A stretch of DNA of 64,000 nt from Leptolyngbya sp. BC1307 (GTDB lineage Bacteria > Cyanobacteriota > Cyanobacteriia > Phormidesmidales > Phormidesmidaceae). Both the position numbers and the translations under genes were made by a program. The stretch covers positions 1-64,000 of the forward strand of contig NZ_NRTA01000023.1 in NCBI RefSeq assembly GCF_002286735.1, given 5' to 3'. Below, in pieces: positions 37,702 to 43,718 of this stretch. The notes beneath the pieces were generated by a model. The model was not told the origin of the DNA. It saw only the letters and a list, made by a program, of their open reading frames with translations, and made no database searches. The stretch's first letter is position 1. Each line of letters starts with the position of its first letter.

Positions 37702-40050
37702 ATGACGACTGATAGCCCGCCGCCTAGCCCTGAGTCGCGTTTCGTCACTAAAGTTGCCAATGCCATTATCCAGTGGACGCCAGTGGGTGGGAGTGGCTGG
37801 CTGCTGATTCATTTTTTGCTGCGGCAAGACTGGCTGTTTTCGCTGCTGATGTTTCCAGTGATGCTGGTGACGGCAGTGTGGGCGAAATATACCGAAAACT
37901 TTATTGAAACTTTTAGCCAAAGTGCGGGAGAGCGAGGCAAAAGTGATGCCAGGTCTCTTTCGCGGTGGCTAGGGCAGATGAGTCAATCGCTGCAGTGGCG
38001 CTTTGCCAATGCAGATGATCAGTATCGACGGGCACAGGCGGACGCTTGCCGGGACTATCGAATTGAGGGCGTAGGCGAGGCCCGGTGGAATGCTGTGCCG
38101 ATGATGGAAGAGGTGTACGTGCCTTTGGGTCTGAGAAGCAGCTTTGCAAGAGGGGGCTTTGTCGGGGCGATGCGCTCGGGTGAAATGGGCGCTGAAGGAT
38201 TGAAGGCTGAAGGATTGAAGGCTGAAGAAGAGAAGCCTCAATATATTTGGGATTTGCTGCGGCAGTCAAAGCAGCGGCCTGGTTACCGGCGGATTGCGGT
38301 GATTGCGCGGGGTGGATTTGGCAAGACGACACTGCTGCGCCACATTACCTATCGCTATGGGCTTAATCCTCATCGCATTTGCCGTGACAAGCAGGTGCCA
38401 AAGCTGATTCCGGTGCTGCTGTATTTGCGAGTTTGGCGAGATGTGATTGCGCGGGCAGATGCACCAGACTTGCCGACGCTGATTGCCGATTATCATGTGC
38501 CTCAGCTACCGGGGAAGTTGCCGGGTTTAGATGCTGACTGGGCGATAAGTTTGCTCAGTAGCGGTAAGGCGCTGGTGATGATCGATGGTTTTGATGAAGT
38601 GGCAGCAGATCAGTGCGAAATAGTGAGCCGTTGGATCGATGCGGCCATTCGGGAATATGGAAGAACGGCCACCTTTATTTTGACTTCGCGCCCGGCGGGG
38701 TATGAGCGCTACACCGGGGAAGCGTCTTGGACGCCAGTGGAGGTAAAAGAGTTTGATGCGGAGCAGCGCAACGACTTTTTGCAGCGGTGGTATTACTGCC
38801 AGGCGCGTCATGCTCGCGGTGGGCGTGAGACAGCAGATGTGAAAGATACGGCTGTGAAAGCGGCGAATAATTTGATTGAACAGATAGAGCGGCGGAAAGA
38901 ACTAGCGAAAATGGCGGACAATCCGCTGCTGCTTTGCATGATTGCGACCTACCATCGGTTTCACCCGACGCGCAGGTTACCCATCGCACGGCCCCGGCTA
39001 TATCAGGGCTTTTGCCAGATGCTGCTAGAAGATCGGCCTGCCTCTAAAGGAATTGAGATGGTGCTGTCGGCTGAAAAGAGTCAGGCGGTGCTGCAAGGGG
39101 TAGCACTGGAGATGGTGCAACAAGATCAGATTGCGCTACCGATGGCTGAGATGGCGCAGTTGGTAGAGCGAGAGTTGGGTAACTGCGCAGCAACGATGAA
39201 TCGCTCAGCAAACACCGACAAGTTTATTGAACAAATTGAAGAAGTGAGCGAGCTGTTTGTGCGCAAACAGTCTTCAGATGAGTATGAGTTTGCTCATCGC
39301 AGTTTTCAGGAGTATCTGGCAGCGGTAGAGATCAAGCGAAGACAGGAAGATAGTTTGTTGCTAGGGCTGAGTAAAGAGTGGCGTGATACGGCAGTGCTGT
39401 ATGCGGCGCTGGCAGAGCCGACGAATTTGATAGAGCAGCTATGCGAGCGGGGAGACCGCGAAGCGTTGGATTTGGCTTATGATTGCTGGCTGGAGAAGCA
39501 GAACCTAGTGCCGACAGCAACCCGCGAAAGGTTACAAGAAAAATGCTATGCGCAGCTAGAGCAATATATGGTTGCGGGCGACTGGAGAGCAGCCGATCAG
39601 TACAACTATCGGCTGATGATTCAGGTGCTAGGGAAGCGGTACGGAGATTACTTCTCAGCGGCGGAACTGATGACCTTTCCCTGCGCCGATTTGCTGCGGA
39701 TAGACGGGCTATGGACAAGACACAGCAACGGGCGATTTGGCTTCAGCGTTCAAAAAGACATTTATGTTAGATGTGGCGGCGTGCTGGATGGCAAATACTA
39801 CGAGAAGCCTTTTGTAAAATTTATTCAGGCTGTAGGCTGGTGCAAAGCAGACGCAAAGCAGTACGATAGCCTTAACGAGCTGATCGGAGATAGTGCGTTG
39901 CGAGACTACGATCAATTTATTTTTTCGTCAGAGAAAGGTGTTGAGGGGACATTTCCCTATTTTGTCGGTGGGGTGGTTGGGGTTGGTTTTTATTGGGGTG
40001 TTGGGGGAGTGGGGGATCTCTTTTCTCGCATCCAGACTTGTGAACTGTAG
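37702..40050 (+). CDS. NACHT NTPase fused to a C-terminal GUN4 domain, membrane anchored
   Basis: 782 residues from ATG 37702 (a TTG nine bases earlier is less likely). Residues about 33-62 are hydrophobic and probably form one or two membrane helices. A short tandem repeat AEGLK occurs near 164-173. The NACHT domain follows: Walker A ARGGFGKTTLL near 202-212, Walker B LVMIDGFDEV near 291-300 with the NACHT-type DGxDE, sensor ILTSRPAGY near 326, and FAHRSFQEYLAAVEI closing the winged-helix part. From about 617 comes a GUN4 domain: YMVAGDWRAADQYNYRLM, FPCADLLRIDGLWTRHSNGR, FGFSVQKDIY. GUN4 binds protoporphyrin and Mg-protoporphyrin. The last 25 residues are Gly/Val-rich and unlike a normal GUN4 end. 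STAND-family switch; role unknown. Confidence 0.88.
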   Translation: MTTDSPPPSPESRFVTKVANAIIQWTPVGGSGWLLIHFLLRQDWLFSLLMFPVMLVTAVWAKYTENFIETFSQSAGERGKSDARSLSRWLGQMSQSLQWRFANADDQYRRAQADACRDYRIEGVGEARWNAVPMMEEVYVPLGLRSSFARGGFVGAMRSGEMGAEGLKAEGLKAEEEKPQYIWDLLRQSKQRPGYRRIAVIARGGFGKTTLLRHITYRYGLNPHRICRDKQVPKLIPVLLYLRVWRDVIARADAPDLPTLIADYHVPQLPGKLPGLDADWAISLLSSGKALVMIDGFDEVAADQCEIVSRWIDAAIREYGRTATFILTSRPAGYERYTGEASWTPVEVKEFDAEQRNDFLQRWYYCQARHARGGRETADVKDTAVKAANNLIEQIERRKELAKMADNPLLLCMIATYHRFHPTRRLPIARPRLYQGFCQMLLEDRPASKGIEMVLSAEKSQAVLQGVALEMVQQDQIALPMAEMAQLVERELGNCAATMNRSANTDKFIEQIEEVSELFVRKQSSDEYEFAHRSFQEYLAAVEIKRRQEDSLLLGLSKEWRDTAVLYAALAEPTNLIEQLCERGDREALDLAYDCWLEKQNLVPTATRERLQEKCYAQLEQYMVAGDWRAADQYNYRLMIQVLGKRYGDYFSAAELMTFPCADLLRIDGLWTRHSNGRFGFSVQKDIYVRCGGVLDGKYYEKPFVKFIQAVGWCKADAKQYDSLNELIGDSALRDYDQFIFSSEKGVEGTFPYFVGGVVGVGFYWGVGGVGDLFSRIQTCEL
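39970..40015 (+). other. G-rich tract with G-quadruplex potential
   Basis: Five runs of four or five G (39970-39973, 39979-39982, 39995-39998, 40003-40007, 40011-40015) lie inside the last codons of the NACHT-GUN4 gene. The spacers are short. They encode the odd Gly/Val tail. The G is on the coding strand, so a fold could form in mRNA. Confidence 0.6.
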
Positions 40051-40120
40051 CACAAGGTAGCTTCAGCCCATTTTTAAATTTCGTAAACGCTAGCTATTCA
40101 TACCAATCCTGGTCGTTTCA

Positions 40121-40891
40121 TCAATTCAGTACCTGGCACCGTGCGATCTCTGGGTTGAGCGCATTTGCCTGTAAAAAACGGTCAGTTACAGCCTGAATTT
40201 CTTCTAGCGGAATGTCCCAGTTTTCCCACAGAGACTTTTGACCAGGGCTTTGCTTCTTTTTTGGCCTGCGGCTAAGCTTTATGCCCGCTAGTAGCTGAGT
40301 GCCCCAGTGATTTTTGCGCTCTGGCTTGGGTTTGGGTTTATATCGCTTGCAAAAGCGCCGGTAAGCTTCAGCGCATAGTTCCAACGTAGCCCCCAACGCC
40401 AAAAAGGCCGGGTGCCACTGCGTAATGCCATCCTGCGTGAGTCGGTCGTAAGTGCCGTAGTTGCTAAAGTCGTAAAAAAAGCCCTGCTGCATATTTGCCG
40501 CCTTTGGGTTGGCATGAATGTAGCGAATGGTATTGAGCGCTCTGCGATAGTCGCTCATCGGGAAGCCGCTGCTGTGATAGCGCTTCTCCCAAAAGTGACC
40601 TGTGCGGTTGAGCAGCCGATTGAAGCACATGGCGCTATACCAATTCAGCCAGTGCATGATTTTAGGCAAGTCTGCTGGCTGCTGCGGCCCGATCAGATAG
40701 TGAATATGGTTGCTCATAATGCACAGCGCATAGAGCCTGAATTCATATTTCGCCTGACATTTTTGAATGGCATAGAGCAACACCTCACGACACTCAAACC
40801 GGGTCAGGCGAAACTCCCGGTTGTTGCAGCGCACCGTGACGTGATAGCAAAAGTCAGGCTGTAGTTGACGCGGTAATCGGGCCATTGCCAT
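40121..40891 (-). CDS. REP-associated tyrosine transposase (RAYT, HUH Y1 family)
   Basis: 256 residues. The HUH site is MSNHIHYLI near 59-67, and the catalytic Tyr lies in RALNTIRYIHANPKAANMQQ near 125. An early YHVTVRCNNREF and the 'GHFWEKRYHSS' block fit RAYT proteins, which are single domesticated genes tied to REP palindromes rather than to a mobile IS. The C-terminal 90 residues are basic (RRPKKKQSPGQK). Intact frame. Convergent with the NACHT-GUN4 gene, 70 nt apart. I see no IS200-type ends. Confidence 0.88.
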   Translation of the reverse strand: MAMARLPRQLQPDFCYHVTVRCNNREFRLTRFECREVLLYAIQKCQAKYEFRLYALCIMSNHIHYLIGPQQPADLPKIMHWLNWYSAMCFNRLLNRTGHFWEKRYHSSGFPMSDYRRALNTIRYIHANPKAANMQQGFFYDFSNYGTYDRLTQDGITQWHPAFLALGATLELCAEAYRRFCKRYKPKPKPERKNHWGTQLLAGIKLSRRPKKKQSPGQKSLWENWDIPLEEIQAVTDRFLQANALNPEIARCQVLN

Positions 40892-41564: not shown

Positions 41565-43475
41565 CTAAGGCATCCTTACCGCATCTGCGCTGACCCAGCC
41601 GCGCGCGCCTGATGCAAACTGCACCTGTGCCCACATGCGGCCATCGTCGCCTTTGGCGGTGTTGAGCACGGTGACGCGATCGCCCACCAATCCATAATGC
41701 GGCGAGTTAGAAGAAGAAGACGGCGCTGAGTGTACGTCTACCTGGTCGCCGGGTGAGCCGCCCTCTAGCTGAGGAGTCTGCGTGGGGGTTGGTGTGGGTT
41801 CGGGTGGCTGCGTCGGCGCGGGAGCGGGGGCAGGTTGTTGCGTGGGTGCTGCTGGTTCGGGTGCAGGCTCAGGTGCGGGCGGGGCGGCGCTGCCCGAAGA
41901 CGCATAGGCCGAAGAGACCCAGCCTTCGGCACCCGAGTCGTAGCGCACGTAATACCAGGTCGCGCCATCGTCGCCCTGAGACTGTCGCAAAATGGTGGCG
42001 CGATCGCCGCTCACCCCCGACCCAGAAGACGAAGCGGCAAATGAAGGACTGTCGTACAGCGCAATCTGGTTGCTAGACGAACTGCTCAGCGTGATTTGTT
42101 CACCGCTCCGCGCGTCTGATGTTGCAGACGAATTCTCTTCAGGAATCTCCTCGCTATCTGTTGCGTCATCTGATGAGTTTTCTTCTTCGCGCTCCTGACT
42201 ATCTGCCGCTTCCTCTTGATCTTCTCTATCTGACGGTCTCGCAGGTCGGTCGGCTGACTGTATGCGAGCCGAGTCAGTCGTCTCTTCTCCTGTCCGAGTC
42301 AAGAAAAATCCGCCCGCGATCGCACCCAAACTCACAACCGCAACGAGTAGCCCTAACAGAATCGGTGAAAGCCCTTTGCGGCCTGACTGACTTTGAGAGT
42401 TGTTATCTGCTTCGCCAACCTGCGTCGGCTCCATTGCCTGTTGATAGGTTGAAGGGTCTCTATTAGTAGGGCCTCTATTCGTAGGGCCTGTTTGAGTAGG
42501 GGTTGTCTGAGAGTAGGGTGACTGGGCAGGGGCCGCTTGAGCTGGGGAGACCACCACTGTTTTTAGCGTGCTGGCCTGGTCTCTAGCAGGCGGCTTGGCC
42601 GGGGCGCTGATCGGATTAACCGGAATGATCGGCAGTTGGCTAGGCGGGGCAACGGCTCCCGGTAGCGCAGAGAGGGCGGCTAACATTTGGCTGGCGCTGC
42701 TGTAGCGATCGCGTGGGTGCGATCGCACCGCCCGATCAATCACATCTACTAGCCCCGAACTCACATGCCCGGCCACTGGTCGCCAGATCAGCTCTCCCGT
42801 CTGCGGATCAGAGTCTAAAGACTGCGGTAGCTGGCGCGTCAGCAAGAAAATCGCCGTCAGCCCCAAACTGTACAAATCGCTAGAGGGAATCGGTCGCCCC
42901 GCCGCCTGCTCAGACGGCATGAAGCCCGGTGTGCCAATCACAATTGAGCTGCGCGGGCTGTTGTAGCTGCTCACAACGGTGCCCATCGTCTCGCGCACCG
43001 CCCCAAAGTCGATCAGCACTGGCTGCTGCGTATCGGCCCTGAGCATAATATTGTCTGGTTTCAGATCGCGGTGAATAATCCCTTGAGTGTGGATAAAATC
43101 GAGCACGGGCAGCAGCGCCACCAAAATTGACCTCACCGCCGCTTCTGAGAGCGCCCCTTGCTGGGCGACTAACGCCTCTAGCGTCGTCCCTTCGATCCAC
43201 TCCTGCACCAGGTAAAAGCGCTGATTTTCGCTGAAGTAGGCATACAGCCGGGGGATTTGCTTATGATCTTCGCCCAGCCGTTCTAAAATAGCGGCCTCAC
43301 GCTGAAACCGGGCCTGCACCACCTGATAAATTTCTGGTTTGGTGGTCAATGGCTTGAGCTGCTTGATGACGCATCGCCGCCGCGAGGGCATCTGCACATC
43401 GTCAGCCAGGTAAGCATGGCCAAATCCGCCTTCTCCCAACGTGCGGACTACCTGGTATCGGTTGTTGATGAGCAT
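41565..43475 (-). CDS. Membrane Ser/Thr protein kinase with two extracytoplasmic SH3 domains
   Basis: 636 residues from ATG 43475 (MLINNRYQVVRTLGEGGFGH); an upstream ATG would add 18. The Hanks-type kinase (about 8-275) has GEGGFGHAYLA, VIKQL (Lys), HRDLKPDNIML and DFGAVRE. A Pro/Gln/Thr linker leads to one membrane helix (about 368-392). Outside lie an acidic Ser-rich stretch, an SH3b domain (about 460-525, GDDGATWYYVRYDSGAEGWV), a Pro/Ala-rich spacer and a second SH3b (about 575-635, ARGWVSADAVRM). Probably senses wall peptides or ligands outside and signals inside. Divergent from mutS. Confidence 0.9.
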   Translation of the reverse strand: MLINNRYQVVRTLGEGGFGHAYLADDVQMPSRRRCVIKQLKPLTTKPEIYQVVQARFQREAAILERLGEDHKQIPRLYAYFSENQRFYLVQEWIEGTTLEALVAQQGALSEAAVRSILVALLPVLDFIHTQGIIHRDLKPDNIMLRADTQQPVLIDFGAVRETMGTVVSSYNSPRSSIVIGTPGFMPSEQAAGRPIPSSDLYSLGLTAIFLLTRQLPQSLDSDPQTGELIWRPVAGHVSSGLVDVIDRAVRSHPRDRYSSASQMLAALSALPGAVAPPSQLPIIPVNPISAPAKPPARDQASTLKTVVVSPAQAAPAQSPYSQTTPTQTGPTNRGPTNRDPSTYQQAMEPTQVGEADNNSQSQSGRKGLSPILLGLLVAVVSLGAIAGGFFLTRTGEETTDSARIQSADRPARPSDREDQEEAADSQEREEENSSDDATDSEEIPEENSSATSDARSGEQITLSSSSSNQIALYDSPSFAASSSGSGVSGDRATILRQSQGDDGATWYYVRYDSGAEGWVSSAYASSGSAAPPAPEPAPEPAAPTQQPAPAPAPTQPPEPTPTPTQTPQLEGGSPGDQVDVHSAPSSSSNSPHYGLVGDRVTVLNTAKGDDGRMWAQVQFASGARGWVSADAVRMP

Positions 43476-43718
43476 CAGTAGCGATCGCCTCAAAGCGCGG
43501 CAACAGCGACATAGAAAGCGGGCAGCCAAAGACTGACTGCGCTAATTCTATGAGCTGATCTAGCATAGTCTAAGCCTGCGGGTTCGCGGCGCATCACGCC
43601 AGCGGATGATGATTTGGTAAAACTAAGCGCCATCAGCATCAAGCTAAGTGTCATTAATCAGCGCCTGCCTCCGTAGAATAAGCTCCTAAAATATAGAAAA
43701 GCCTATCCCCCCGCCTCT

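Follow-up and report, generated by a model that had tools for sequence, protein, structure and literature searches.

The antigen sensors diversified by diversity-generating retroelements (DGRs), which occur in bacteria with complex signalling, place a hypervariable C-terminal sensor on a NACHT or other STAND (signal transduction ATPases with numerous domains) core (Dore et al. 2024, PMC10907252), and the bNACHT, or bacterial NLR-related, antiphage proteins are tripartite with NACHT at their centre (PMC12169576). GUN4 domains, for their part, have been published in fusions to kinase, caspase, trypsin and TIR domains (PMC7159879, PMC1262709 and PMC2853523), and PMC7159879 already proposes fused GUN4 as a reporter of tetrapyrrole status in conflict systems. 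A literature search, with preprints outside its reach, found no paper that singles out a fusion of GUN4 to NACHT. Here we consider such a fusion, encoded by one gene in a 64,000-nucleotide stretch of DNA from Leptolyngbya sp. BC1307 (assembly GCF_002286735.1, contig NZ_NRTA01000023.1, positions 1 to 64,000 of the forward strand), hereafter the window, whose genome is a draft that is 99.99% complete. The architecture is common in cyanobacteria, with dozens of near-full-length homologues among the 291 genomes of the class that formed our sample. The most interesting feature of this gene, more so than its architecture or the porphyrin switch proposed in a preliminary description of the DNA, is its hypervariable, frame-free GUN4 end.

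What that description had overlooked is the nature of the GUN4 end, a hypervariable tail that a conserved DNA element closes off. Past the GHLP/GEFP motif homologues can no longer be aligned, and the base composition of this segment sets it apart from the rest of the gene: the 47 tails used for our statistics, 14-159 nt in length, have pooled frequencies of 15% A, 8% C, 44% G and 33% T (upstream 28/21/27/24), and a G+T content of 78% versus 50% in the gene body (p 4e-13). The bias is sharply edged: the 90 bp that precede the tails and the 60 bp that follow them are of normal composition. In pairs of proteins whose GUN4 domains are 80-93% identical in amino acids, the tails reach only the identity that shuffled tails show. 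In the same pairs identity at four-fold sites mostly falls at 60-90% (29% in one pair), and that of the DNA downstream of the element at 49-97%. The clearest case is that of loci L116 and L123: as far as the tail their DNA is 90.5% identical over 2.29 kb, the tails, of 142 and 62 nt, are unrelated, and homology returns at the element. Forty-six of the 47 tails are open in the frame that is used, whereas composition-preserving shuffles leave 23±3 open (maximum 33 in 2000); the tail is thus kept translatable, and these comparisons of sequence show that selection keeps it open.

By what route do such tails change? Local duplications, of 20 bp in the L091 tail and 15 bp in the L125 tail, show one way in which a tail grows. 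A possible source of instability is the G-quadruplex: a motif of four runs of at least two G is found in 32/47 tails versus 7% of upstream controls, and the stricter motif of four runs of at least three G in seven, the window tail not among them. Donor cassettes or gene conversion were considered and rejected, since neither a donor for nor a second copy of the window tail was found elsewhere in its genome, and the genome of L116 held no near-identical donor for the L116 insert. As an observation in its own right, the 142-nt tail of that gene (L116:1055-3475, + strand) encodes VEFEFAHSSFKEFFTAMEA, a peptide similar to the winged-helix segment in that protein's own NACHT part.

The element that closes the tail is conserved as DNA. 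Homologues end in one of three peptides, LFSRIETCEL, SLASRLVNC or LLSHPDL, and the three are one DNA sequence, about TCTCTTCTCTCGCATCnAGACTTGTGAACTGTAG, in three reading frames. A pattern search found 58 sites in 47 of the 291 genomes and none for the reversed pattern, and the end-cap is kept across 26 of 130 genera. We read 54 copies, 53 at fetched loci together with that of the window; 51 end an open reading frame (ORF) with a GUN4 core, and the three exceptions are one copy interrupted by the end of its contig and two for which no GUN4 could be recognised upstream. The three frames are entered 18, 16 and 17 times, and the distance from the GUN4 core to the element ranges from 21 to 235 bp. 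Homologues collected through protein similarity, without use of the pattern, for the most part show the element on inspection as well. A Pfam scan of 20 element-bearing proteins found their GUN4 domains fused to caspase (nine), TIR (six), kinase (three), NACHT (one) and TIR-NACHT (one), and many further NACHT-GUN4 proteins carry the element too. At L005:10130-10220 the end-cap peptide, GLFSRIENCEL, is kept despite drifted DNA, and the peptide itself may be under selection in some lineages. We rejected a phage or plasmid origin: no copy of the element was found in viral contigs, and the best 30 plasmid matches are other NACHT proteins at <30% identity. A structured RNA was set aside as well: the single Rfam match, to a Dictyostelium snoRNA, is far below cut-off, and RNAalifold gave no stable consensus for the element, support coming only from the explicit count of hairpin pairs given below.

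The protein that bears this end largely bears out its preliminary description. A single ORF of 782 residues (with an in-frame TTG 9 bases 5' of the ATG) joins NACHT (PF05729, residues 198-363, E 1.2e-9, 38.7 bits against a cut-off of 26.7) to GUN4 (PF05419, residues 613-753, E 1.9e-24, 86.9 bits against 29.2), so that the gene is one and intact as had been claimed, and key residues of the NACHT motifs then recognised are invariant in 29 homologues (Table 1). The AlphaFold model of the whole protein, made with 29 homologues, has a mean confidence (pLDDT) of 80.5, and its best Foldseek matches are NLRC4, NLRP3 and NOD2 (E down to 1e-10, TM-score ~0.3), consistent with the NBD-HD1-WHD (nucleotide-binding, helical and winged-helix domain) fold of NLRs and the NACHT clade of STAND proteins. 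The model of residues 601-782 (pLDDT 88.8) matches GUN4 crystal structures, among them 4xkb with deuteroporphyrin and 7e2t with phycocyanobilin, and a phmmer search of the PDB matched the C-terminus to Arabidopsis GUN4 (7e2r, E 8.4e-11) and further GUN4 structures; the architecture described at first is therefore confirmed. Membrane anchoring is a fair prediction, given a hydrophobic stretch (Kyte-Doolittle 1.7 around residues 43-61) that is kept in homologues; no Pfam domain was found before residue 183 and no N-terminal effector was recognised there, only this predicted segment. That GUN4 sits where STAND proteins usually have their sensor is likewise borne out, and the existence of relatives in which different, longer C-termini follow the same N-terminal scaffold supports the view of the sensor as a module.

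Table 1. Features of the NACHT-GUN4 locus, in coordinates of the window
Feature	Position	Strand	Evidence or remarks
NACHT-GUN4 gene	37702..40050	+	782 aa from ATG, stop TAG at 40048-40050; ORF, Pfam NACHT and GUN4, homologues in many cyanobacterial genomes
Predicted N-terminal membrane segment, ~residues 20-60	37759..37881	+	hydropathy maximum at residues 43-61; hydrophobic consensus in homologues; low model confidence
NACHT NTPase core, residues 198-363	38293..38790	+	Pfam PF05729; NLR fold by Foldseek
Walker A, ARGGFGKTTLL	38305..38337	+	G205, G207, K208, T209 and T210 invariant in 29 homologues
Walker B, DGFDE, residues 295-299	38584..38598	+	D295-E299 invariant in 29 homologues
Winged-helix motif FAHRSFQEYLAA with H532	39289..39324	+	F530, H532 and S534 invariant in 29 homologues
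GUN4 domain up to GHLP-equivalent motif (GTFP here)	39538..39957	+	Pfam PF05419; structure match to GUN4 crystals
G/T-rich hypervariable tail, 60 nt, encoding YFVGGVVGVGFYWGVGGVGD, in place of the LxNxLR ligand loop	39958..40017	+	homologue comparison
End-cap element CTCTTTTCTCGCATCCAGACTTGTGAACTGTAG, read in three frames with a stop in each	40018..40050	+	pattern search, homologue frames
Imperfect REP-like hairpin CTGTAGC / GCTTCAG, T.T mismatch, GTAG in 5' arm	40045..40066	+	pair counts
Relative of REP-associated tyrosine transposases (Y1, HUH), convergent with the NACHT-GUN4 gene and 70 bp beyond its stop	40121..40891	-	Pfam, NCBIfam

The nearest named homologue is that of Leptothoe kymatousa (54% identity). 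In the window genome there are three GUN4 proteins: a canonical Gun4 (L001), a TIR-GUN4 (L002) and the NACHT-GUN4. The TIR-GUN4 (L002:1423-2781, - strand) closes with a variable, G-rich tail of its own and, at three mismatches, the same end-cap; a short remnant of the transposase C-terminus lies downstream of it. Elsewhere, the NACHT-GUN4 of Leptolyngbya sp. PCC 7375 (L008:5585-9617) is broken into two ORFs with ~1.7 kb between them, as is the transposase downstream, with ~3 kb between its parts, which suggests insertions in both; and the NACHT-GUN4 at L093:738-3554 (- strand) shows a weak match (E 6.7e-5) between NACHT and GUN4 to FGE-sulfatase, a domain type that DGRs diversify. The PADLOC model PD-T4-6 matches the window gene (E 5.7e-26) over the GUN4 domain only, and we set that identity aside on this account; GUN4 proteins could be miscalled as that defence system. 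A Ser/Thr kinase with C-terminal SH3 repeats and without GUN4 is encoded near the locus (window 41565-43529, - strand).

A major question arising from these observations is what the GUN4 domain now recognises. In canonical GUN4 the segment after GHLP is LxNxLR, whose Asn211 (Asn219 in Chlamydomonas) is required for bilin binding (PMC10156173), and mutation of Arabidopsis R211 lowers the affinity for Mg-protoporphyrin 7- to 12-fold (PMC8967248); by our own mapping from chain alignments, with the numbering of the crystal chain assumed, R211 would be the Arg of LxNxLR. The motif, with its bilin-binding Asn and porphyrin-binding Arg, is absent from the window protein and from all 52 element-ending ORFs checked, and its loss weakens the idea that the domain reads porphyrin. 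The pocket is partly kept, the F196 position and a GHLP-like motif often being retained, and the N219G variant of Chlamydomonas GUN4 retained its porphyrin (PMC10156173), so that the domain here may bind porphyrin after all. In the comparison with canonical GUN4 that the preliminary description had called for, then, part of the binding site was recovered and LxNxLR was not; its proposal of a tetrapyrrole-status switch was right about the domain and its position, and porphyrin sensing itself has become less likely. We consider it unlikely that GUN4 binds protoporphyrin, Mg-protoporphyrin or bilin here and so triggers NACHT during photodamage or infection. The predicted structure is a genuine GUN4 fold, and PMC7159879 offers the same idea for fused GUN4; against this, the side of the cleft that LxNxLR used to occupy is hypervariable, which would be odd for a conserved metabolite ligand.

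Instead of a simple sensor of porphyrin, the hypervariable tail suggests a surface diversified for recognition. Our favoured reading, to which we give a probability of roughly 0.55, is that the protein is a membrane-tethered STAND (NACHT) switch with a diversified GUN4-fold sensor whose tail sets recognition. Its GUN4 domain, of the fused paralogue type, has lost the tetrapyrrole-contacting LxNxLR and bears a short hypervariable peptide in its place, and the end-cap stops translation in whichever frame it is entered. The tail may form or lid the old ligand cleft and may give each receptor its own specificity, probably for invader or danger signals, and binding there would trigger NACHT activation at the membrane. 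We infer an immune-type receptor family because the fusion partners are cell-death and immune-type signalling domains.

What, then, could have rewritten the tails? A candidate is the Y1 transposase gene that converges on the NACHT-GUN4 gene (Y1_Tnp of Pfam, E 1.1e-17; best NCBIfam model REP_Tyr_transpos, E 2.7e-19, 69.5 bits, below its cut-off of 80), where REP stands for repetitive extragenic palindromic. In a survey of 116 genomes with a threshold of at least 57% identity, copies were found in 17 genomes at one or two matched places each. A GUN4 core lies in the flank at 14 of the 19 fetched loci; the remaining five comprise three at or near contig ends, one copy at 57% identity, and one partial copy whose neighbouring NACHT-GUN4 gene is just beyond the fetched flank. 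Wherever checked, the transposase is convergent to the GUN4 gene. Genome G067 holds ten copies at 44-49% identity that are unlinked to GUN4. The link is specific and not universal, so that the transposase could act in trans, could have acted formerly, or could be a passenger. The adjacent hairpin has 73.6% of its cells paired versus 28-45% when slid, with covariation above all 500 shuffles; it is weak, with seven positions including the T.T mismatch. GTAG is present in 27 of the 54 copies and lies inside the arm, and in the window genome the hairpin is found at two places only, namely the 3' ends of two GUN4 genes. Downstream of the element in genus g32 (L119, L111 and L124) there are unrelated repeat arrays (GGGGCAGAGCATT.. 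/ GGGTAGAGCATTTGCG..) around a different transposase-like ORF (MSYNPEIHHRRSIRLQGYDYTN..).

From these features we propose, tentatively and with odds that we put clearly on the other side, diversification at the level of DNA without a reverse transcriptase. A domesticated REP-type Y1 transposase would work at the end-cap, non-templated indels would make the G/T-rich tail, and the three-frame stop would tolerate any change in length, so that immune proteins of the NACHT, TIR, kinase and caspase kinds would receive variable recognition tails on a common GUN4 scaffold. The CT-rich start of the end-cap might be nicked by the Y1 enzyme or by an ancestor of it (for TnpA-REP enzymes the cut is at CT next to a GTAG hairpin), and the end upstream of the nick, that of the tail, might be altered without a template before rejoining. 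The logic would be comparable to that of junctional diversity in antigen receptors. Our literature search, which did not extend to preprints, found no such system for GUN4 tails beyond the DGR and conflict-system papers.

Several observations weigh against the account given so far. A near-complete convergent transposase stands beside only 11 of the 54 elements, with remnants at six; at 35 there is none within at least 400 bp, and two are cut by contig ends. Genomes G093 and G012 have element copies and no transposase match at the threshold used. One frame of the end-cap is predicted with confidence to be a helix, and the end-cap may therefore also have a role as protein. The neighbours of the window gene are housekeeping genes (SMC, NAD kinase, MutS), with no defence island. 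All tail comparisons were run between species, so they do not gauge rate or activity.

Could GUN4 be a homotypic adaptor, joining NACHT receptors to TIR, caspase and kinase effectors within one cell, with variable tails that insulate parallel pathways? That one module of GUN4, tail and cap is common to all four kinds of protein, that a single NACHT-GUN4 occurs alongside a single TIR-GUN4 in the window genome, and that no effector domain is recognised at the N-terminus of the NACHT protein would all suit such a role. The two tails of the window genome do not match, in a comparison that included no systematic search for matched tails within genomes, and we rate the adaptor as improbable to about the same degree as the tetrapyrrole switch. 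Slightly less probable again is neutral decay, in which the C-terminus drifted freely after loss of a chelatase role and the stops come from an end-cap that is no more than the end of a REP or transposon. The loss of LxNxLR, the freely varying tail length and the transposase remnants at some loci are all as decay would have them; drift would not be expected to leave tails open so far beyond expectation, to edge their composition so sharply, to bring their similarity down to that of shuffled sequence in pairs that still agree at four-fold sites and downstream, or to keep an end-cap across so many genera. A DGR target, in which a mutagenic reverse transcriptase rewrites the tail as a variable repeat from a template repeat, we reject as highly improbable, although C-terminal sensors of NACHT and other STAND proteins are DGR-diversified in multicellular bacteria (PMC10907252) and cyanobacterial DGR variable proteins with GUN4-like domains have been reported (PMC7517822), because the tails differ in length and frame, unlike the products of adenine-directed mutagenesis, no template was found in the window genome, the only RVT_1 match is on another contig, and Pfam finds no C-type lectin or FGE (formylglycine-generating enzyme) domain at the C-terminus of the window protein.

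If the tail of this membrane-tethered NACHT switch is indeed a diversified recognition surface, cyanobacteria would have a second route, besides DGRs, to variable sensors on NLR-like proteins, the many fused GUN4 proteins would gain a function other than chlorophyll regulation, and a family of REP-associated transposases, of which little is understood in the cell, might be given a role. How the locus compares with its closest known counterparts can be put briefly. Where DGR sensors have a C-type lectin or FGE domain, a reverse transcriptase and a template repeat (PMC10907252), here there are GUN4, a G/T-rich tail that changes length and frame, and a three-frame end-cap, with no template found. 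The bNACHT proteins (PMC12169576) resemble the window protein in their tripartite plan around a central NACHT module and in the NLR fold of our model, and differ in that the latter has a membrane segment instead of a known effector and GUN4 instead of C-terminal NCH1 or SNaCT. With canonical GUN4 (Synechocystis sll0558, Arabidopsis GUN4) it shares the fold and the core motif LWxxHSxGRFGFSVQ; it differs in its NACHT fusion and in the lost LxNxLR, and a separate canonical Gun4 is present in the genome. The GUN4 fusions and the GUN4 of VMAP ternary conflict systems place the same family on signalling and death-effector domains, and in the extracts available of those texts (PMC1262709, PMC2853523, PMC7159879) the NACHT fusion is not singled out and neither the hypervariable tail nor the DNA end-cap is described. 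Finally, with the REPtrons of TnpA-REP, or RAYT (REP-associated tyrosine transposase), enzymes (PMC8266576, PMC6006769) the locus has in common a Y1 HUH transposase, low copy number and CT dinucleotides nearby; its hairpin, with a stem mismatch and with GTAG in half of the copies, resembles theirs (PMC8266576) and yet is not a dispersed repeat, being confined in the window genome to two GUN4 3' ends.
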